NCBI GenBank assembly: GCA_002742695.1
Contig: DLUI01000063.1
Coordinates: 1-33,195, forward strand
Direction: 5' to 3'
DNA length: 33,195 nt
Origin: Sulfuricurvum kujiense
GTDB taxonomy: Bacteria; Campylobacterota; Campylobacteria; Campylobacterales; Sulfurimonadaceae
Within the stretch, counting starts at the first letter, position 1. Each line of letters starts with the position of its first letter. Positions 4,797 to 13,305 of this stretch are shown here, piece by piece. The notes below the pieces were generated by a model that saw only the letters and a program-made list of their open reading frames with translations, did not search any database and had not been told where the DNA came from. The translations under genes and the position numbers were made by a program.

Positions 4797-5411
4797 ATGA
4801 GTACGAAAATTAGATTTTTGCTTCGTTATATTTTTGTGGGGGCGCTTTCGCTTTTCCCTTTGATCTTGGTGATCGTTGTCGTCAATTATCTTAAAAATTT
4901 AGGGGTAAGTGCCTACTCTTCGCTTCATGATTACACTAACTCGTTTGGGGTGACCTTGGCATTGATGGCAGGTGTTATCGGTGTTTTTGCCGTACTTGGA
5001 TATTCGATTGAGAAATACGGGCGCTCCATTTTTGTTTCAATGATTGACAGTACCTTTGAGAAAATTCCCGCTATCCGCTCCGTCTATTCCGTCTCGAAAA
5101 AACTCGCCGCAATGCTCAGCGGTGGGGAAGACGGGACGAAAAAAGAGGTGGTACTTGTAGAGTATCCAAAAGAGGGGTTATGGGTTCCTGCGTATCTGCT
5201 CAACCGTTATGAAAATATCTGCGTCCTTTTCATCCCTACCTCTCCGAATCCGACGAGTGGATATACGGTTTTGGTAGATGAAGCAAAGATCAAGAAAACA
5301 ACCTTGACCCTTCAGGAAGCCTCGTCGTTTATTATCAGTATGGGAGCCGATTTCCCTCAAAAAGAGAGTGTATCAGCCCTTATTCAAACCCATCAGATTA
5401 GTAAAACGTGA
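4797..5411 (+). CDS. DUF502 family membrane protein
   Basis: A 204-residue inner-membrane protein of unknown function. Two hydrophobic segments are clear, near residues 6-34 (LSLFPLILVIVVVNYL) and 50-70 (VTLALMAGVIGVFAVLGYS), followed by a soluble part holding the family signature PTSPNPTSGYTVLVDE. GG at 4787-4788 is the best ribosome site. The last codons are unusual: after QTHQI the frame runs into island DNA (SKT, then TGA). Without the island it would stop at TAA directly after QTHQI (see 5382-5399). The domain is complete, so the protein should be intact. Confidence 0.9.
   Translation: MSTKIRFLLRYIFVGALSLFPLILVIVVVNYLKNLGVSAYSSLHDYTNSFGVTLALMAGVIGVFAVLGYSIEKYGRSIFVSMIDSTFEKIPAIRSVYSVSKKLAAMLSGGEDGTKKEVVLVEYPKEGLWVPAYLLNRYENICVLFIPTSPNPTSGYTVLVDEAKIKKTTLTLQEASSFIISMGADFPQKESVSALIQTHQISKT
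5382..5399 (+). repeat. Left 18-bp direct repeat of the island (attL-like)
   Basis: ATTCAAACCCATCAGATT, identical to 9557-9574. It covers the last codons of the DUF502 gene (IQTHQI). Read on the other strand it spells the end of NhaA (KSDGFE); with the two bases before it, that reading ends in TAA at 5382-5380. Confidence 0.85.
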
Positions 5412-5502
5412 TTTAGGGGATCAAAAAATCGATTTGATTTTTAACGAAGATGAGAACAGACTGATCGAACAGGAGGCTCGTAAATGGGCGATTCGGCTTT
5501 AG
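5401..5502 (+). pseudogene. Possible 3' remnant of an unknown gene
   Basis: Just inside the island an open frame shifted from DUF502 reads VKRDLGDQKIDLIF, then NEDENRLIEQEARKWAIRL and TAG. The composition, with many charged residues and an amphipathic helix, looks like a real protein C-terminus rather than noise. The frame stays open upstream to a GTG at 5368, but that part lies inside the DUF502 gene and there is no good ribosome site. The likeliest reading is the tail of a donor gene carried in with the island; a tiny overlapping gene is the alternative. I do not recognise the family. Confidence 0.35.
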
Positions 5503-5612
5503 TTTATCACACTAAACTTCTGAATTACAAAAAATTCTAAGCTTTATCGTTCGTGGTGAGTGCTTATGCCCTTCAGGGCAAACAAGTAGATGTAAAATAC
5601 TCGTTAAAAATA

Positions 5613-5621
5613 TGGTATAAT
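5613..5621 (+). promoter_or_regulatory. Extended -10 promoter of the small RNA
   Basis: TGGTATAAT is an extended -10 element with a perfect TATAAT (5616-5621). Seven bases further lies G5628, the predicted first base of the RNA. Confidence 0.65.
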
Positions 5622-5627
5622 TTTTTT

Positions 5628-5707
5628 GCTAACAGTAACTTTTCATATCGTTGATGGAGCGGTAACGCTGAGGTCGAGGGATTAATTACCCCTCGACCTT
5701 TTTTTTT
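5628..5707 (+). ncRNA. Candidate small regulatory RNA (~80 nt)
   Basis: The unit has all the parts of an independent small RNA. It starts with an extended -10 promoter, followed by about 30 unstructured bases beginning GCUAACAGUA. A perfect four-pair hairpin with a GNRA loop follows (AGCG 5658-5661, GUAA, CGCU 5666-5669). It ends in a ten-pair intrinsic terminator. It matches no family I know; it is not SRP RNA, 6S RNA or tmRNA. The first ten bases are complementary to codons 4-7 of the peptide gene 114 bases downstream, so the open 5' end may be a pairing seed. It could instead be the attenuated leader of that gene. Confidence 0.6.
5671..5707 (+). terminator. Strong intrinsic terminator of the small RNA
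   Basis: AGGTCGAGGG (5671-5680) pairs perfectly with CCCTCGACCT (5690-5699) around a nine-base loop. A run of nine T begins at 5699. Confidence 0.9.
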
Positions 5708-5740
5708 ACCCTCCAAAAACGGTATGAGAAGGGGGTCTTT

Positions 5741-5800
5741 ATGGATAGAATACTGTTAGCACTTATTCTATTGTGCATTTTTGCACCTATGCTCAATTGA
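5741..5800 (+). CDS. 19-residue hydrophobic peptide, possible type I toxin
   Basis: The frame encodes MDRILLALILLCIFAPMLN. AAGGGGG at 5729-5735 lies five bases before the ATG, a strong ribosome site for so short a frame. The peptide is one membrane-spanning stretch with a basic residue at position 3. In size and layout it resembles the Ibs toxins of enteric bacteria (19 residues, short polar start, long aliphatic core), a resemblance of form and not shown homology. No -10 box is evident between the RNA terminator and the ATG, so expression may need terminator readthrough. Codons 4-7 are complementary to the 5' end of the upstream RNA. A chance frame cannot be excluded. Confidence 0.45.
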   Translation: MDRILLALILLCIFAPMLN

Positions 5801-5807
5801 GTGTAGC

Positions 5808-5827
5808 CAAGGGGTTTACTCCCCTTG
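5808..5827 (+). other. Hairpin just after the peptide gene
   Basis: CAAGGGG (5808-5814) pairs with CCCCTTG (5821-5827) around TTTACT, starting eight bases after the peptide stop. No T run follows, so it is a poor terminator but could protect an mRNA 3' end. A smaller hairpin, GTGCA-TTTT-TGCAC, sits inside the peptide gene at 5773-5786. Confidence 0.45.
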
Positions 5828-5910
5828 CCCCCCTATTAGCAATCTTTATTATTTCGCCAATTCAAAAACTTTTACTGCTTAATCAATGTATAAAAACATT
5901 TGGCATTACG

Positions 5911-6015
5911 ATGAATATTCTCAACACGATCATCGAAACACTAGGGGAACTGGGAAAAATTCTTGTGACGATTCAATCGTTAATGGAGAAAAAAGAAGAG
6001 TGTTCCCTTTTTTAG
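5911..6015 (+). CDS. 34-residue amphipathic peptide, hypothetical
   Basis: From ATG 5911 the frame gives MNILNTIIETLGELGKIL, VTIQSLMEKK and EECSLF, an amphipathic helix followed by a charged tail. The frame is open back to a GTG at 5773, but that part crosses the 19-residue peptide gene and a hairpin, and its hydrophobic run looks accidental. TATAAA at 5889-5894 could be a -10 box, which would leave a leader of only about ten bases. There is no clear ribosome site. The helix pattern recalls small membrane-active peptides, but I assign no function. It lies between the RNA/peptide module and the palindromic repeat. Confidence 0.3.
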   Translation: MNILNTIIETLGELGKILVTIQSLMEKKEECSLF

Positions 6016-6045
6016 CCATTTTCAGTTAACTGTCATACGCATTTT

Positions 6046-6112
6046 GTCATACCGTACTTGATACGGTATCCATCCATTTTTGTGGATTCCGTGTTGAAGC
6101 ACGGAATGACGA
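6046..6112. repeat. Double-hairpin palindromic intergenic repeat
   Basis: Two stems stand side by side: ATACCGT (6049-6055) with ACGGTAT (6063-6069), and ATTCCGTG (6086-6093) with CACGGAAT (6100-6107). The ends also match each other inverted: GTCATACCGT at 6046 against ACGGAATGAC at 6101, nine of ten. This is the build of a REP- or MITE-like element. A decayed relative lies on the far side of the R-M genes at 9466-9513. Confidence 0.65.
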
Positions 6113-6125
6113 GAGTGTTGAATTA

Positions 6126-6314
6126 TTAATTTTTCGGCTGTAGCGTTATTTTTTCCAACCGTTCATAATGTTCTTTTGCTTCCTTTACTACCTCTTCAAC
6201 TTCAAATCCTTGCATGACTATTTTGTATAAATAAGGCTTTGTAGTTCTCCAATTACGCAATGTCCGTGCATCCACATCTAATAACCGTGCCATATCTTGT
6301 TGAGTCATTTTCAT
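6126..6314 (-). CDS. Small HTH protein, possible R-M controller
   Basis: A 62-residue protein from ATG 6314 (MKMTQQDMARLLDVDARTLR). TQQDMARLLDVDARTLRNWR is a typical helix-turn-helix, followed by NWRTTKPYLYKIVMQGF and a charged helix. The frame is open 11 codons upstream to a TTG at 6347, but ATG is preferred even though the nearest AGGAAGG lies about 15 bases away. It is transcribed away from the methyltransferase gene across a 152-base AT-rich gap. That is the layout of controller proteins of R-M systems, though it lacks clear similarity to known C proteins. Control of the R-M operon is inferred. GC content is low, like the rest of the island. Confidence 0.7.
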   Translation of the reverse strand: MKMTQQDMARLLDVDARTLRNWRTTKPYLYKIVMQGFEVEEVVKEAKEHYERLEKITLQPKN

Positions 6315-6417
6315 GTAGGAATTCTTATACTTCCTTCCTGATAACAAAATTCGGAACCATATGTTGTTAAAATAACTCTATTTAGGAAAAATATGCAATA
6401 ATCCAAAAAAAATAATC

Positions 6418-6430
6418 GGAAAATAATTCC
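6418..6430. promoter_or_regulatory. Possible operator between the HTH and R-M genes
   Basis: GGAA-AATAA-TTCC is a short palindrome 37 bases before the methyltransferase start. A similar half site, TAGGAAAAA, begins near 6383. It is a plausible site for the divergent HTH protein, but four-base arms in AT-rich DNA are weak evidence. Confidence 0.25.
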
Positions 6431-6466
6431 TAATATTTAATTATTAACGACAATTGGAGCACAATA

Positions 6467-8392
6467 ATGGCAAAAAAAGAAGTTGTAACGGATTATTGGG
6501 TTCGCGATTTATTAAAAGAAGCAAATATCGAATTAGAACCACAGGGTAGCACTATTATTGAAATTGATAATGCTTTAAAAAGTGCATCAAAAAAAGGCAC
6601 TGGTAACGTAGGATTTCCTGAATTCGTTGGTGTCATCAAAGATTTTTTATTAGTGATTGAGAATAAAGCCGACTTGTCAAAACATATTAAAATGAATAAT
6701 GATGGACAAATCAGTCTTGAGCCAAAAGATGTAAAAGATTACGCGATTAATGGGGCTTTATTTTATGGGCAACATTTAGCAAAAAATACTTCATATAAAA
6801 AAATTATTGCTTTCGGTATCTCTGGAAATCCAAAAAAACATAAAATTAGCCCTATCTATATTGACGAAACAGAGTGGTATAGAGAACTGCCTGATGTTGA
6901 GTCTTTTATTTCATTTACAGAAAAAAATATTGAAGAGTATTACACAAGAGAAGTATTAAAAGAAGAAACGAATCAAGAAAAAGAGACAGCAGAAATTTTG
7001 CAAGATGCAGCAAATCTACACGAAGATTTGAGAAATTATGGAAATTTAAAAGATGTTGACAAGCCATTGATTGTATCTGGGATTTTACTAGCACTTAGAG
7101 AATCTGATTTTGGCAACTTCTCTATTAAAGATTTAACAGGTGACACAATTAAGACGGATGGACAGAAAATTTACGATGCAATCGTATTTAACTTAACAAG
7201 AGCGAATGTATCTCCTGAAGTGAAAAAAGATAAGATTCTGAGCCAATTTGCACTCATCAAAGACACTCAGGTGTTAAATGAAATAAATCCTAAGTTGAAC
7301 AAAACACCATTAAAGCATTACACTGAATTTTTAGATGATAAGATTTATAGAAACATAAAATACGCAAGATCATCAGAAGACTATTTGGGAAGATTTTATG
7401 GTGAGTTTATGTCCTACTCTGGAGGTGATGGGCAATCTTTAGGTATTGTTCTCACTCCAAAGCATATCACTGATTTGTTTTGTGAATTGATTGATATTAG
7501 CCCCTTTGATATCGTCTTAGACCCTTGCTGTGGAACAGGAGGTTTTCTCGTTGCCGCAATGCACCATATGTTAGAACAAACCGATACTGAGGCTTTGAAA
7601 AAGAGCATTAAACAAAAACAGCTTCACGGATTTGAATTACAGCCCTATATGTTTACAATAGCCACCACAAATATGATTCTGAGAGGCGATGGTAAAAGCA
7701 ATTTAATCAATGACGACTTTCTGAAACAAGATTCAAATAAATTACAGCTCAAACAAGCAACAGTAGGGATGATAAATCCTCCATATTCTCAAGGTTCGAA
7801 ACAAAACCCTGATTTATATGAAATAGCCTTTACAGAACACTTGTTGGATTCATTAATGGTTGGTGGAAGATGCGTTGTGATTGTTCCACAATCTTCTGTA
7901 ACAGGTAAGACAAAAGAAGAAGAGGCAATAAAAGTAAATATATTAAAGAAACATACTTTAGAGGGCGTTATAACTCTGAATAAAAATACATTTTATGGAG
8001 TAGGAGTAAATCCGTGTATAGCTATCTTTACGGCAGGTGAACCACATCCAAAAGATAAAGAATGCAAATTTATAAACTTTGAGAATGATGGATATAAAGT
8101 CAGTAAGCACATAGGGCTTGTAGAAACCGAACAAGCCAAAGACAAAAAACAACATTTAATTGATGTATGGTTTGACAGGATAGAATCAGAAACGAATTTT
8201 TGTGTTAAAACGAGCATAGAGGAAGATGACGAATGGCTTCACAGCTTCTATTATTTTAATGATGAAATTCCAACGGATGCAGAGTTTCAGAAAACTATTG
8301 GAGACTATTTATCGTTTGAATTTTCTATGATAATGCAAAATAGAGGTTATTTATTTGGGCTTGAGCAAGATGCAGATGTCAATAATGCTTAG
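6467..8392 (+). CDS. Nuclease-methyltransferase subunit of a BcgI-like Type IIB R-M system
   Basis: This 641-residue protein joins cutting and adenine methylation. The N-terminal part has a PD-(D/E)xK nuclease pattern: P51-E52, then E65-N-K67 within KDFLLVIENKAD. A helical HsdM-like part follows. The N6-adenine methyltransferase core shows LTPKHITDLF (from 329), the SAM motif LDPCCGTGGFL (351-361) and the catalytic NPPY (437-440). Length and order match BcgI subunit A (about 637 residues), which cuts on both sides of its site. GGAG at 6456-6459 precedes ATG 6467. The specificity gene overlaps the 3' end. No separate HsdR gene is present, so a classical Type I system is unlikely. All catalytic motifs look intact. 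Confidence 0.88.
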   Translation: MAKKEVVTDYWVRDLLKEANIELEPQGSTIIEIDNALKSASKKGTGNVGFPEFVGVIKDFLLVIENKADLSKHIKMNNDGQISLEPKDVKDYAINGALFYGQHLAKNTSYKKIIAFGISGNPKKHKISPIYIDETEWYRELPDVESFISFTEKNIEEYYTREVLKEETNQEKETAEILQDAANLHEDLRNYGNLKDVDKPLIVSGILLALRESDFGNFSIKDLTGDTIKTDGQKIYDAIVFNLTRANVSPEVKKDKILSQFALIKDTQVLNEINPKLNKTPLKHYTEFLDDKIYRNIKYARSSEDYLGRFYGEFMSYSGGDGQSLGIVLTPKHITDLFCELIDISPFDIVLDPCCGTGGFLVAAMHHMLEQTDTEALKKSIKQKQLHGFELQPYMFTIATTNMILRGDGKSNLINDDFLKQDSNKLQLKQATVGMINPPYSQGSKQNPDLYEIAFTEHLLDSLMVGGRCVVIVPQSSVTGKTKEEEAIKVNILKKHTLEGVITLNKNTFYGVGVNPCIAIFTAGEPHPKDKECKFINFENDGYKVSKHIGLVETEQAKDKKQHLIDVWFDRIESETNFCVKTSIEEDDEWLHSFYYFNDEIPTDAEFQKTIGDYLSFEFSMIMQNRGYLFGLEQDADVNNA

Positions 8393-9440
8393 TGATAGAG
8401 AATGGAAAGGATTTTTGTTAAGTGGAGATGATGGTATATTTCAAAATTATCACGGTAAAAGACTTACTAAAGATGACCGTAAAGAAGGTGATATTCCATT
8501 GCTAACAGCTGGAGAACAAAGACAAGGAGTGGCTGAATTCGTTTCTAATCTTTCAATGGAGGTATTCGAAGATTTTATCTCAATTGATATGTTTGGAAAC
8601 TCATTTTACCACAAGCATAAATGCTGTGGCGATGATAATATATACTTTTTTATCAATGATGATCTATCAGAATATGTTAAATTATTTATAACGAATTCAA
8701 TTGGCTACCAAAAAGACAAATATTCATATGGAAAGCAATTTAGACAAAAAAATGCCGACTCTTCAAAAATATTACTTCCAGTGAACCCTAATAATTCAGA
8801 TGAACCAGATTATGATCTTATGGAACAATACATAAAATCAATAATAGGAAGAAAAGTAGAATTTTATAAACAATATACAAAAACAATGTTAAGCAAATTG
8901 GAGTATAAAGAGATACAGAAGCTCGAAGAGATGGAATGGGATGGATTTGAGGTTGGGAAGCTTTTTAAATTTCAAACTGGAAAATCAAAAGGGTTGAATC
9001 ATTTAGAAAAGACAATAAATGGCATTAACTATTTAGGAGCGACAAATAGAAATAATGGTGTTTTATGTCAAGTTAAAAACAATGAGGAGATGATACAAAA
9101 AGGAAACTGCATTGCTTTTATTAGGAATGGAGAAGGGTCAATGGGATATGCCGTCTATAAATCAGAAGACTTTATCGCTACCTCCGATATTACGGCTGGA
9201 TATGCAGACTTTTTAAATAGACATATTGGTTTATTCATTACCACCGTATCAGATAAAATCAGAGGGAAATATAATTTTGGCTACAAAAGAAGTGACACGA
9301 GATTGAAGAAAGAAAAACTTTTACTTCCGGTTAATGATAAAGGTGAACTAGACTATGAATTTATGGAGCAGTATATGAAGAATTTGGAGTATAAAAAAAT
9401 TAAGCTATACCTAGATTTTTTAGAAAATCAAAACAGATAA
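8370..9440 (+). CDS. Specificity subunit of the BcgI-like system
   Basis: About 356 residues, close to BcgI subunit B (about 341). It holds two half repeats, each a target-recognition domain plus a connecting helix. The first begins REWKGFLLSG and ends ILLPVNPNNSDEPDYDLMEQ; the second begins MEWDGFEVGKLFKFQTGKSK and ends LLLPVNDKGELDYEFMEQYM. Such duplicated domains recognise the two halves of a split, bipartite DNA site. The gene overlaps the methyltransferase by 23 bases, so translation is coupled. ATG 8370, 8376 and 8385 are all in frame and none has a strong ribosome site; 8370 is taken as the first ATG. The recognition sequence cannot be read from the protein. Confidence 0.85.
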   Translation: MQMSIMLSDREWKGFLLSGDDGIFQNYHGKRLTKDDRKEGDIPLLTAGEQRQGVAEFVSNLSMEVFEDFISIDMFGNSFYHKHKCCGDDNIYFFINDDLSEYVKLFITNSIGYQKDKYSYGKQFRQKNADSSKILLPVNPNNSDEPDYDLMEQYIKSIIGRKVEFYKQYTKTMLSKLEYKEIQKLEEMEWDGFEVGKLFKFQTGKSKGLNHLEKTINGINYLGATNRNNGVLCQVKNNEEMIQKGNCIAFIRNGEGSMGYAVYKSEDFIATSDITAGYADFLNRHIGLFITTVSDKIRGKYNFGYKRSDTRLKKEKLLLPVNDKGELDYEFMEQYMKNLEYKKIKLYLDFLENQNR

Positions 9441-9465
9441 TAGATTTTTTCTATAAGAGTATAAG

Positions 9466-9513
9466 TTGGAACCCCGTGTCAAGTACGAGGATGACGAAAC
9501 CTTGTCATTCCTA
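9466..9513. repeat. Decayed copy of the palindromic repeat
   Basis: TTGGAACCCCGTGTCAAGTA and the following CGAGGATGACGA align with the right half of the repeat at 6083-6112, sharing TGGA, CCGTG and ATGACGA in the same orientation. The stem CCCCGT/ACGAGG has one mismatch. A second small inverted pair, GGATGAC/GTCATTCC, follows. Confidence 0.45.
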
Positions 9514-9533
9514 AGAAAGTGGTAGTTTAGTTC

Positions 9534-9561
9534 TGAATGAATAAAATCTATTATTCATTCA
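9534..9561. other. 11-bp inverted repeat across the right island end
   Basis: TGAATGAATAA (9534-9544) pairs perfectly with TTATTCATTCA (9551-9561) around a six-base loop. The right arm runs into the 18-bp repeat and includes the nhaA stop. It may be a shared terminator for the convergent specificity and nhaA genes, although no T run follows on either strand, or a recombination site arm. Confidence 0.5.
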
Positions 9562-10742
9562 AACCCATCAGATTTAAGCGGTTTAGTTAAAAAATAGCGT
9601 AATACCGCATATCCGATCACTCCGGAGAGGAGTGATCCTAGTAATATCCCCAGCCTTTCATCGCATAAAGCGAGACCTCCGGCTCTGGCATGCTCAAATG
9701 CAAGAGAGCCGATGAATAACGACATCGTAAACCCGATCCCGCTGATGATTGAAACGCCGTAGAGTTGTCCCCAATTAACACCGTAAGGGAGTTTTCCAAA
9801 TCCCATCCAAACCGCCAATGCACTAAATAAAAATACCCCTGCTTGTTTGCCGATAAAGAGGCCGAATGCGATTCCAAGAGTAATGTTATCGTAGAAATCC
9901 TGTGCCGAAATATTGGAAAAGCCGATGCCGGTATTGGCAAACGCGAACAGCGGCAAAATGATAAAGTTGACCGGTGCGTGGAGGGAGTGCTCAAGTGCAT
10001 GGAAAGAGGGTTTGTTGTTTTTAAGCGGAATCAGTAACCCCAGAATGACGCCGGCTAGGGTGGCGTGAACCCCTGATTTTAAAACCGCTGTCCATAAGAC
10101 GATACCGACCAATATGTATGCGGTGTGGTTGATAACTCCTTTGATATTCATGATAATTAAAAGAGCGATCATAGTCGCCGCAGTGATTAATGAAACGCTT
10201 GATAGCTCGGAGGTATAAAAAAGGGCAATGATGATAATCGCACCCAAATCATCAATAATCGCCAGTGCTAAAAGAAAAAGTTTAAGCCCTTTGGGGACGC
10301 GATCTCCCAAAAGGGTCAATATACCTAGAGCAAATGCGATATCGGTAGCAGAGGGGATCGCCCACCCCTGAAGCGCTATAGGATTGTTCCAGTTGAACCA
10401 TGCATAAATGAGCGAGGGGACTGCCATCCCACCCAGTGCGGCAAAAGCGGGAACGGCTATCGCTTTGGGATCACTGAGAGAGCCCTCAATCACTTCACGT
10501 TTAATCTCCAAACCGATCATAAAGAAAAAGACGGCCATAAGACCGTCATTGATCCATAGAAGAAGCGGTTTGGCAATTACGAGTTCTCCGATGCTGATAA
10601 CAACGGGAATCGACGTCAGTGCATCGTACAATGAGTGAAGATTTGTATTTGCCATGATCATAGCGAAAAGCGTGGCTAAAACAAGGAGTATTCCGGTGGC
10701 TGATTCAAGTTTAAAAAAATTCAGCAGAGAGTATTTGAGCAT
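9555..10742 (-). CDS. nhaA: Na+/H+ antiporter NhaA
   Basis: Exports Na+ (or Li+) in exchange for protons across the inner membrane and so regulates pH and sodium. The 395 residues and roughly twelve hydrophobic segments match the family (E. coli 388). The ion site is visible: D134 in SATDIAFALG and D164/D165 in AIIDDLGAI, equivalent to E. coli D133, D163 and D164. The conserved lysine of LFIGKQAGV and the N-terminal INDGLMAVFFFMIGLEIKRE are also present. AAGGAAAC lies before ATG 10742. The stop is now TGA, using two island bases; before the insertion it would have been TAA at the same codon. The DUF389 gene lies 71 bases upstream on the same strand. Confidence 0.97.
   Translation of the reverse strand: MLKYSLLNFFKLESATGILLVLATLFAMIMANTNLHSLYDALTSIPVVISIGELVIAKPLLLWINDGLMAVFFFMIGLEIKREVIEGSLSDPKAIAVPAFAALGGMAVPSLIYAWFNWNNPIALQGWAIPSATDIAFALGILTLLGDRVPKGLKLFLLALAIIDDLGAIIIIALFYTSELSSVSLITAATMIALLIIMNIKGVINHTAYILVGIVLWTAVLKSGVHATLAGVILGLLIPLKNNKPSFHALEHSLHAPVNFIILPLFAFANTGIGFSNISAQDFYDNITLGIAFGLFIGKQAGVFLFSALAVWMGFGKLPYGVNWGQLYGVSIISGIGFTMSLFIGSLAFEHARAGGLALCDERLGILLGSLLSGVIGYAVLRYFLTKPLKSDGFE
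9557..9574 (+). repeat. Right 18-bp direct repeat of the island (attR-like)
   Basis: ATTCAAACCCATCAGATT, identical to 5382-5399. On the minus strand it encodes the last residues of NhaA (SDGFE) plus the first base of its TGA stop. Next to it on the plus strand is TAA (9575-9577), the probable original stop of the DUF502 gene. Confidence 0.85.
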
Positions 10743-10813: not shown

Positions 10814-12178
10814 CTAATGGATGATGATTTTTACGTTATCCGATTTCGTTCTCATTTTGAGCCATTTTTCTATTTTTGCCCGTTCTCCTCTTGAGAGCCG
10901 TTTTTTAGTCTCGACATTGAGAATCAGGCGATTTTCACTGACGTTACGTTCCACTGCCGTTTCATCATAATTTTGGGACAAGACAACATTGGTAACTTTA
11001 GGAAAGAGGGTTTCCAGTTCATTGGGGATAGCACTGTAATAGTCGCGGTTACGTGATAAAAGAGACATCTCCTCTTTTAATCGGGCGATCTCTTTCTCTT
11101 TAGCTTGCAGATCGGCTTTTGTATTTTGATACAAATCGGTGATGATATCGGCTTTGAGTGTGGAGACGTCAACATCTTCGCGTTCGCCGTTTTGATACAC
11201 TTTGAGTTTGGCTTTTTCCAACCCTTCAGCATTTAGCCGTATGATAATGGTATCGAGTTCGCTCTTGGGAACATAGTCTCCGATCAGAAATACTTTTACT
11301 TCGTAGGTTTTTGGGTTGATTTTTACCTGAGCCACATTTGTGTTTTTAAAATTCAGGTGTTCGTTTACAAAGGCGGTCGCTTTGGCTTTAAAGACCTCTT
11401 GTCCGACGAGCTGATAGGCCAAATATGAACTTGGCAGGATCGTAAGAAGCGCTACGGCAACGATATAGCGCTGTGCCCGCTTGGCAACATCGGAGTCGAC
11501 GTATTTTTTCTCCGCCACATTAAATGCGCGAACGACTAAAAATGCCGATAATGCGATGAAAACAAAGTTGATGGTGTAGAGGTAAAATGCTCCGAAGAAA
11601 TAGCTCCAATGTCCTGTTGCCAAACCAAATCCAGCAGTGCACAGGGGCGGCATCAATGCTGTTGCAATAGCAACACCGGGGATAACGTTTGTCTTTTCTT
11701 TGCGTGTGATCGCAACGATTCCGGCCAATCCACCGAAAAGTCCGATCAAGACATCCCACACGGTCGGTGTCGTCCGTGCAAGGAGTTCTGATTGGGCGGT
11801 ATCGAGCGGTGAGATCCAAAAATAAAGGGTAGAGGTAAGAAGACCGATAAGGGTTGCGATAGCCAGATTTTTAAATGCTCTTCGCAGAAGGGTAAAATCG
11901 TTAATTCCCGCTCCGTATCCGATCCCCATAATCGGTCCCATCAGCGGAGAGATAAGCATCGCTCCGATAATAACGGCGGTGGAATTGACGTTTAGACCGA
12001 TGGATGCGACGAAAATAGCAAACATTAAAATCCAGAGATTTGCCCCTTTCATATGAATGTCGCCACGGATACGCTCATCAATAATAGTATCGTCAGCTTT
12101 ATCCTCAAAAAGGCTTAAGCGTTCACGCAAGAGCTGTTTTGCCGTTATCCAGAAACGGTGTTCTTCAATGTTGGTCAT
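10814..12178 (-). CDS. DUF389 family membrane protein
   Basis: A 454-residue inner-membrane protein of unknown function. After a short cytoplasmic start, about six hydrophobic segments cover residues 45-260, including the family signature VIIGAMLISPLMGPIMGIGY. The C-terminal half (from about 265) is soluble, with an alpha/beta part, a coiled-coil stretch near residues 345-375 (KADLQAKEKEIARLKEEMSL) and a final small fold. AAAGGCGAG precedes ATG 12178. The protease gene ends 29 bases upstream, so the two are probably in one transcript. Transport or osmotic stress roles have been guessed for the family, but nothing here decides this. Confidence 0.88.
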   Translation of the reverse strand: MTNIEEHRFWITAKQLLRERLSLFEDKADDTIIDERIRGDIHMKGANLWILMFAIFVASIGLNVNSTAVIIGAMLISPLMGPIMGIGYGAGINDFTLLRRAFKNLAIATLIGLLTSTLYFWISPLDTAQSELLARTTPTVWDVLIGLFGGLAGIVAITRKEKTNVIPGVAIATALMPPLCTAGFGLATGHWSYFFGAFYLYTINFVFIALSAFLVVRAFNVAEKKYVDSDVAKRAQRYIVAVALLTILPSSYLAYQLVGQEVFKAKATAFVNEHLNFKNTNVAQVKINPKTYEVKVFLIGDYVPKSELDTIIIRLNAEGLEKAKLKVYQNGEREDVDVSTLKADIITDLYQNTKADLQAKEKEIARLKEEMSLLSRNRDYYSAIPNELETLFPKVTNVVLSQNYDETAVERNVSENRLILNVETKKRLSRGERAKIEKWLKMRTKSDNVKIIIH

Positions 12179-12207: not shown

Positions 12208-13305
12208 TTATTCAAACTCATCAAACTTCGGCTCAGGGGCTTTGAATTTTTCACTGAGAAACTTTTGATAACGGGGAGCACTGTCGAAGAGTTTCCGCAA
12301 CGCCCATGTACCGTGCATTTCACTGAGCGATGAATCGACGATCACATAGGAGAGATAGACGGTGTTCTCGTTGATCGAAAACTGCAATCGCTCCAGTGCA
12401 CTGTTTTCCCCTAATAAATAATCATACAGTGCTTCGATATTCTCTTGCGGAATACGGCAGAGTGCCGAATCGGCAATGACGATACCGTTATCGTAATAGT
12501 TGATGTCGATACGGGTTGTTCCTATCTCAAACCGCCAGCTCCGCTGACTCCGTCTGGATAGGGTCACATTAATCTTCAGAGCTTCTAAAATCTTTTCAAT
12601 CAATGCCACGACACCAGAGGGTTTATACCCCTCACGGCGTCGTTTTGCAACGTCGAGTTTCGTTCCGCATTTTGGGCAATAATCATTTTGGATTGTGGAT
12701 TCTACAATTAGATTTTTACATGAACCGCATCGGATAACATCTTCGGTTTTTAGAGCTCGGAACTGATCAAGTGCCTCTTTGAGAGTGTATGAGGGGAGGG
12801 CAAAGCCAAGGTTATTGGAGTTCTGGATGATAAACGTGTTGACACCGATCACCTCTGCAGAGTCGTTAAGGAGCGGCCCTCCGCTGTTTCCGGGATTGAT
12901 GGCGGCATCGAATTGGATGTATTCCACCTCTCCTTGGAGACGGGAGGCTTTGGAGACGATCCCTTCCGTCGTAGAGTAATTAAGTCCGTAGGGATGGCCG
13001 ATGGCAATGACTCCATTTCCGTCTTGTACGGGGATTTCGGAGAGAACCAAAGGATTTTTGCACTCGATAGAGATAGGGGAGCGGATAAATGCGAGATCAA
13101 ATGCAGGATCGTCATAGATGACCGTACCGATGGTTTTAGGGAGGGTTTTGGTACTGATGAGTACCTCTTTGAGGCCACTGACGACATGCGAGTTGGTTAT
13201 GATAAGCTCTCCGATGAGAAAACCGCTTCCGCTGCCGTAGGGGTTAGTGATCTGGACGATACTTTCAATCGTTTGTTCGACCATTTTTTGGGTGGCTGTA
13301 TTCAT
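12208..13305 (-). CDS. Intracellular trypsin-like serine protease with zinc ribbon
   Basis: A 365-residue protein of the HtrA/trypsin fold without signal peptide or membrane segment, so probably cytoplasmic. The catalytic triad is complete: H40 (TNSHVV), D70 (FDLAFI) and S141 (NPGNSGGPL). No PDZ domain follows. Instead there is a zinc ribbon with CxxC pairs C193/C196 and C210/C213, then an alpha/beta domain (about 228-345, RFEIGTTRIDINYYDNGIVI) that looks like the YbjN/type III secretion chaperone fold. The start lies two bases after the stop of the upstream gene, which suggests a shared job. The fold of the C-terminal domain is inferred from its strand pattern; substrates are unknown. Confidence 0.82.
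   Translation of the reverse strand: MNTATQKMVEQTIESIVQITNPYGSGSGFLIGELIITNSHVVSGLKEVLISTKTLPKTIGTVIYDDPAFDLAFIRSPISIECKNPLVLSEIPVQDGNGVIAIGHPYGLNYSTTEGIVSKASRLQGEVEYIQFDAAINPGNSGGPLLNDSAEVIGVNTFIIQNSNNLGFALPSYTLKEALDQFRALKTEDVIRCGSCKNLIVESTIQNDYCPKCGTKLDVAKRRREGYKPSGVVALIEKILEALKINVTLSRRSQRSWRFEIGTTRIDINYYDNGIVIADSALCRIPQENIEALYDYLLGENSALERLQFSINENTVYLSYVIVDSSLSEMHGTWALRKLFDSAPRYQKFLSEKFKAPEPKFDEFE

Follow-up and report, generated by a model that had tools for sequence, protein, structure and literature searches.

The 33,195-bp stretch of Sulfuricurvum kujiense DNA analysed here (the window) carries a small restriction-modification (RM) cassette lodged between two convergent genes, one encoding a DUF502 protein and the other the Na+/H+ antiporter NhaA. 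Insertion of this cassette at the convergent overlap of the two genes, with duplication of about 18–20 bp of target, is well supported. Furthermore, to judge from sequence comparison, nhaA and the adjacent DUF389 gene are an earlier insertion, with its own duplication, into an overlap between the DUF502 gene and a gene encoding a trypsin-like protease, and in other species different cargo occupies this junction. The reading favoured here, with confidence slightly on the better side of even, is that of nested insertions at one convergent overlap, by recombinase-free capture with target duplication, filtered for the survival of both genes. The flanking genes and the repeat copies are the following:

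4797-5411, + strand: DUF502 protein gene, left flank, whose last three codons and stop are supplied by the insert (Pfam PF04367, E 1.2e-17; tail compared with 41 genomes)
5382-5399, + strand (5380-5399 when a TTCA slip in the right copy is disregarded): left direct-repeat copy, 18-mer (sequence search, alignment)
9555-10742, - strand: nhaA, Na+/H+ antiporter gene, part with DUF389 of the first-generation insert (Pfam PF06965, E 1.1e-140)
9557-9574, + strand: right direct-repeat copy (sequence search)
10814-12178, - strand: DUF389 protein gene, of the same first-generation insert as nhaA (Pfam PF04087, E 3.5e-49)
12208-12228, + strand: third, diverged copy of the site, which is the 3' end of the trypsin-like gene, the ancestral DUF502 partner (sequence search, genome comparison)
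12208-13305, - strand: trypsin-like protease gene, ancestral convergent neighbour of DUF502 (Pfam Trypsin_2, E 1.3e-21; adjacency in the genus)

The 18-mer ATTCAAACCCATCAGATT is present in two perfect copies, at 5382-5399 and 9557-9574, exactly as an earlier note on this DNA had reported. In 100 dinucleotide shuffles searched for this 18-mer with up to 3 mismatches, matches number 0.12 on average, and none of the shuffles reaches three. A search for further copies found none in the window's own genome (G000) at one mismatch or fewer and a single copy with two mismatches, on contig C153. Once a TTCA tandem duplication in the right copy, recognized by inspection, is set aside, the repeat extends to the 20 bp TTATTCAAACCCATCAGATT, and the ungapped alignment of the two copies gives 19/20 matches. 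A diverged third copy of the 18-mer (3/18 mismatched, 12210-12227) forms the very end of the trypsin-like gene and is the key to the history of the site.

The site without the RM insert is found in a close relative, G024, where DUF502 meets nhaA directly, the sequence reading ...ATTCAAACCCATCAGATTTAACCGG. The earlier note had reconstructed an empty site by joining the two flanks through one repeat, and had proposed to look for it in related genomes; the G024 sequence is identical to this prediction, with DUF502 ending in ATT-TAA and nhaA in GAA-TAA at a convergent overlap of stop codons, and it holds a single copy of the sequence that is duplicated at both ends of the insert. In the window, DUF502 ends in ATT-AGT-AAA-ACG-TGA and nhaA in GAA-TGA, which bears out the suggestion that both genes took new stops from the island after its entry. 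The G024 contig stops inside nhaA, and a second contig, which overlaps it by exactly 141 bp, carries DUF389 and the trypsin-like gene, DUF389 lying between nhaA and the trypsin-like gene in this genome also. Both repeat copies of G000 are of the nhaA-junction variant (18/18 identical to G024), whereas the trypsin-end version differs at 3/18. Therefore, both appear to derive from the recipient's own site, which fits a target duplication and not a recombination between the resident site and a slightly different incoming one. Recombination in which each parent contributes one copy, the right repeat coming from the donor and the other from the recipient, is therefore rejected.

The comparison was extended to 41 Sulfuricurvum genomes (G000, that of the window, to G040). 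In 31/41, DUF502 overlaps the trypsin-like gene or lies no more than 52 bp from it: the overlap is of 38 bp in 16 genomes, 23 bp in one (G005) and 4 bp in seven, and a gap of 0-52 bp is found in the other seven. Three of the gapped genomes (G012, G029 and G035) carry a stretch of about 50 bp that looks hairpin-like by eye; those of G012 and G035 resemble that of G029, which was the one aligned separately. The DUF502/nhaA pair is therefore not ancestral, and the target proposed in the earlier note holds for the RM cassette but not for the original arrangement. Likewise, its picture of a single event had to be given up, since other species carry different genes at the junction. An occupied junction is seen in five genomes (G000, G008, G019, G024 and G028), and three more (G014, G032 and G040), in which DUF502 and the trypsin-like gene are on separate contigs, are judged to be occupied from the adjoining genes; the trypsin-like gene has no match in G003 and G004. 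The cargo comprises restriction systems, toxin-antitoxin pairs, nhaA and kinase/nuclease genes. The nhaA gene itself is present in 15/41 genomes and is found at the DUF502 site in G000 and G024, where the copies of the site to the left of nhaA and to the right of DUF389 match at 17/20 positions. The ten nhaA homologues compared from other sites, in nine genomes, are devoid of the SDGFE tail that the site lends. Thus, in the window a second-generation insert lies beside a first-generation one.

The RM insert and its immediate surroundings contain, from left to right:

5400-5502, + strand: 3' remnant (last third) of an MntA-like nucleotidyltransferase antitoxin gene (homology to the intact G008 gene)
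5484-5524, + strand: 5' remnant (first 41 bp) of a HepT/HI0074-like gene (alignment to relatives)
5525-5908, no strand: unrelated 384-bp replacement within the HepT remnant, with a dispersed structured repeat of about 225 bp (alignment, repeat search, folding)
5909-6015, + strand: 3' remnant of the HepT-like gene (alignment to G008 and G019)
6126-6314, - strand: small helix-turn-helix (HTH) gene, 62 residues, likewise found beside restriction genes in G008 (open reading frame (ORF), alignment)
6467-8392, + strand: fused restriction-methyltransferase subunit, 641 residues, BcgI-like type IIG/IIB (PADLOC REase_MTase_IIG PDLC03602, E 4e-177, residues 2-631)
8379-9440, + strand: specificity subunit (PADLOC Specificity_II PDLC03591, E 3.6e-37; Pfam Methylase_S)
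9441-9556, no strand: spacer from the specificity gene to the right repeat, holding a 14-nt stretch inversely repeated at 6053-6066

The insert is AT-rich, with 31-40% GC in windows wholly or mostly inside it against about 40-53% in the rest of the stretch. The fused subunit matches Pfam N6_Mtase (E 2.5e-38), shows an NPPY motif in its translation and is 89% identical to its G008 homologue. By protein sizes and models, the pair fits a BcgI-like type IIB system, the comparison being made with the proteins of the BcgI prototype: a fused nuclease-methyltransferase of about 640 residues and a separate specificity protein of about 350 residues, from which the pair shows no notable difference. The intact relative of the MntA remnant matches Polbeta/NTP_transf_2, and the MntA_antitoxin model below its cut-off, while the intact HepT-like relative matches NTase_sub_bind and TIGR01987, each below the curated cut-off. 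Neither the ORFs of the insert nor a Pfam scan revealed a recognized transposase or integrase, in agreement with the earlier note; the 62-residue HTH gene alone gave weak matches below cut-off, and a further weak one (E 0.001) to mad1, a PADLOC model for which no cut-off is set. A plasmid was considered as vehicle and rejected, since the four best plasmid relatives of the methyltransferase (from Butyrivibrio and lactobacilli) are 59-73% identical and provide no close source.

The ends of the cargo are less tidy than its point of entry. Homology to the intact MntA gene of G008 (92% over 125 bp) begins precisely at 5400, immediately after the left repeat, and the left boundary is therefore not the end of a tidy element; it is a blunt cut within MntA, flush with the left repeat. 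At this join, zero bases are shared between G024 and the MntA genes of G008 and G019, that is, no microhomology. Thus, the idea of a precise island holds for its entry but not for clean element ends, base 5400 falling inside a gene that G008 has intact and the window in truncated form. The fragment may have been truncated already when it entered; alternatively, a deletion after entry may have trimmed the left repeat, and 18-20 bp would then be a lower bound for the original duplication.

Three side observations concern the dispersed repeat of about 225 bp (window positions about 5604-5838). It has matches, some of them partial, in 22/41 genomes of the genus including that of the window; the six copies compared (window and five others) all hold a hydrophobic ORF of 19 residues, MD(R/K/E)...C(I/L)FAPMLN; and the folding z score of the window RNA is -10.1. 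Rfam detected no known RNA in the insert, this repeat included, at E up to 0.1. The repeat may be an unlisted type I toxin or a small-protein element. Separately, the 14-nt inverted repeat (93%; 6053-6066 and 9474-9487) brackets the restriction genes, in surroundings that look hairpin-like by eye.

The other occupied junctions carry diverse cargo. In G008, whose cargo is MntA, HepT, a small HTH gene and a restriction system like that of the window, the restriction genes lie between DUF502 and the trypsin-like gene on one contig; its specificity gene is split into two ORFs (locus 8492-9591), the last of which takes an IIQTHQI tail from the site repeat. G014 carries a kinase, a cyclic-phosphate receiver, a WYL regulator and a PD-(D/E)XK gene, the middle of the region being missing between two contigs. 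G019 carries MntA, HepT and a long ORF which has no Pfam hit and, by eye, is similar to the end of a type III Res protein; G028 carries CcdAB. Beside the trypsin-like gene of G032 are an HNH fragment and a pair that matches the CcdAB of G028 by eye. In G040, the trypsin-like gene is accompanied by type III restriction genes and one for a DUF218 protein, and DUF502 adjoins a pepN-like gene; a rearrangement may be involved. On contig C81 of this genome (7677-12868), the type III mod and res genes and the DUF218 gene are packed between hydrogenase-like genes and the trypsin-like gene.

When at least 16/20 matches are required for a clear repeat, four events qualify, namely the RM cassette of G000 (19/20, ungapped), nhaA-DUF389 of G000/G024 (17/20), G008 (16/20) and G014 (18/20), whereas G032, G040, G029, G019 and G028 fall below. 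The scores of the clear repeats are equalled at 2 to 7 of 156,742 places, in sequence that itself holds the site copies. The lineages with clear repeats are those in which most unoccupied genomes have an overlap of 38 bp (16 genomes) or, in G005, 23 bp, and the repeat of G008 spans 23 bp (19/23 matches), the overlap length of its relative G005. In the group with a 4-bp overlap, both occupied sites (G019 and G028) share TTAA alone.

According to the favoured reading, nhaA-DUF389 would first have entered the overlap between DUF502 and the trypsin-like gene and, later, a fragment carrying the BcgI-like restriction system would have entered the new overlap between DUF502 and nhaA. Comparison shows that each entry duplicated about 20 bp of the shared gene end and that both flanking genes kept an end. 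As to the route, the incoming fragment was probably captured at a break, with duplication of the target and no recombinase, as proposed for restriction genes of Helicobacter pylori; selection would then retain the events that leave both overlapping genes whole. Homologous recombination in the flanks probably also moves alleles between lineages.

Several observations weigh against nested, recombinase-free capture. The empty site for the RM insert is documented in G024 alone. The contrast between clear repeats and short overlaps rests on small numbers (four events against two), the shared TTAA is little evidence, being dictated by the two stop codons themselves, and decay of an older, unconstrained left copy in the 4-bp group could mimic the pattern. 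G002 and G013, which are nearer to G008 than G005 is in the tree, overlap by 38 bp. The repeats of G032 and G040 are weak, 6/20 in the first alignment and 11/20 after a one-base shift chosen by the authors, a score reached at 981 of 156,742 places, and those of the G029 hairpin insert score 7/20 and 8/20. Given the free variation of the DUF502 tail, there may be little selection for its retention. The baseline, which consists of one other convergent pair, amidase/galU, showed no clear difference: galU has a match in 40/41 genomes, and among the 30 loci fetched, 16 are at 90% identity or more, with the amidase overlapping galU or within 92 bp in 14, a contig end in one and no amidase within about 1.5 kb in one; the 14 lower-identity loci (73-78%), which have no amidase, were excluded. 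As one pair is too little, the DUF502 junction cannot be called statistically hot. Two weak matches below cut-off come from the small HTH gene of the insert: HTH_Tnp_1, a transposase HTH model, at E 0.0019, and the model of the VC1465 family Xer recombination activation factor at 19.3 bits (cut-off 70; E 0.00089). Finally, all four clear repeats have the same starting point, base one of the stop codon of the neighbouring gene (for the RM cassette, provided that the TTCA slip is disregarded), the 20 bases upstream matching at 2-6/20 positions. Chance placement would scatter the start, so this constancy may mean a fixed cut.

The constant start is the strongest point for a rival according to which the 3' end of the trypsin-like gene would be the attachment site of a tyrosine recombinase, with elements that lose their recombinase and stack as in the tandem accretion of cis-mobilizable elements (CIMEs), the RM cassette being one of them or having moved in trans. 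Such a history would leave a gene whole with repeats of some 20 bp at its 3' end, and stacked inserts separated by a repeat, as seen here; the portions of the review PMC5704250 that treat the subject describe how remnants of integrative elements accumulate in stacks at the 3' ends of genes and define CIMEs by direct repeats of 8-60 bp that include the end of the target gene, as the present repeats do. Phage_integrase matches are found elsewhere in all eight occupied genomes (four in G000; one in G024 is on the contig of the trypsin-like gene, some 16.5 kb past it), so that help in trans is possible, and the Xer-factor match of the HTH gene, although far below cut-off, points the same way. However, no recombinase was recognized in the five joined intervals (G000, G008, G019, G024 and G028; some ORFs had no match and a few small ones were unscanned), no attP partner was found, the cargo ends are not constant and one falls inside MntA, and the two occupied genomes with a short overlap have no long repeat. 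Furthermore, both G000 copies are of recipient type over 18/18 bases, which an incoming attP would need to match, and the trypsin-end 21-mer has no off-locus copy at two mismatches or fewer in the 41 genomes; nine are found at three mismatches, the number by which the nhaA-type core would itself differ from the query. A viral attachment site was also sought: one exact match was found among viral contigs, in a stretch whose genes look phage-like by eye and which has no hit to seven flank or cargo proteins, and it was put down to chance. A lost or trans-acting integrase is possible, in view of the constant start and the weak matches of the HTH gene, and the attachment-site explanation as a whole is considered rather doubtful. 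That the overlap of DUF502 and the trypsin-like gene is a docking site, where some machinery that always cuts at the stop codon of the neighbouring gene and brings no recombinase in the cargo would repeatedly install defence cassettes and duplicate the overlap, is judged unlikely.

Alternatively, the repeats could be old, cassettes being swapped between species through the conserved flanking genes and the repeats serving as occasional crossover or deletion points, so that G024 may have lost the RM cassette. The same kinds of cargo do occur in distant species (MntA/HepT in G000, G008 and G019; CcdAB in G028 and, by eye, in G032), and G024 shows a mosaic pattern, its identity to relatives changing close to the site and a second time further left: to the left of the site it is 91-92% identical to G000 and G038 over 5-8 kb, further left 83% to G038, and on the trypsin side 83% to G038 overall (76-86% by 400-bp steps). 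In a two-gene tree, printed without support values, occupied genomes lie among unoccupied ones and the uninserted G038 is beside G024; therefore, loss or recombination in the flanks is probably part of the history. Against this, G000 has two identical copies, each of nhaA type, so that the duplication looks recent and local, a join of donor copy and recipient copy is not observed, and loss of the cassette in G024 would add one event. This explanation is regarded as quite improbable. An assembly artefact is conceivable in a fragmented draft (166 contigs, 88% complete for G000), and an 18-bp repeat is shorter than the word sizes usually used in assembly, which counts against it; in another species (G008), a single contig carries DUF502, the same restriction genes and the trypsin-like gene in this order, and an artefact is therefore very improbable indeed.

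Sulfuricurvum and H. pylori belong to the same phylum, Campylobacterota, and insertion of RM genes with long target duplication was reportedly described in H. pylori by Nobusato (2000) and Furuta (2010). The relevant excerpts of PMC3031569, PMC1643837 and PMC3874152 cite H. pylori restriction genes whose insertion duplicated of the order of 100 bp of target. As in those insertions, the restriction genes of the window lack a recognized transposase and are flanked by a direct target duplication. Unlike them, the site holds several unrelated cargoes and the duplication, located in a gene overlap, is of about 20 bp instead of the order of 100 bp given in the excerpt of PMC3874152: 18-20 bp in the window, with 16-18/20 matches in the other clear events. 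As the duplication is short, the case can be said to work like the H. pylori type, which it resembles more than it does the CIMEs, and membership is not claimed. Among the titles listed in literature searches, none dealt with the DUF502/trypsin-gene site.

In the cassette studied here, a small restriction system entered overlapping gene ends and copied the shared end so that both genes survive, and the inserts that relatives carry at this place are often defence genes. With an empty site, an occupied site and a stacked insert side by side, this junction offers a case for the settlement of small RM and toxin-antitoxin cassettes without a recognized recombinase. It also suggests a testable rule: inserts that survive at convergent overlaps should duplicate the overlap, and the length of the repeat should therefore track that of the overlap.

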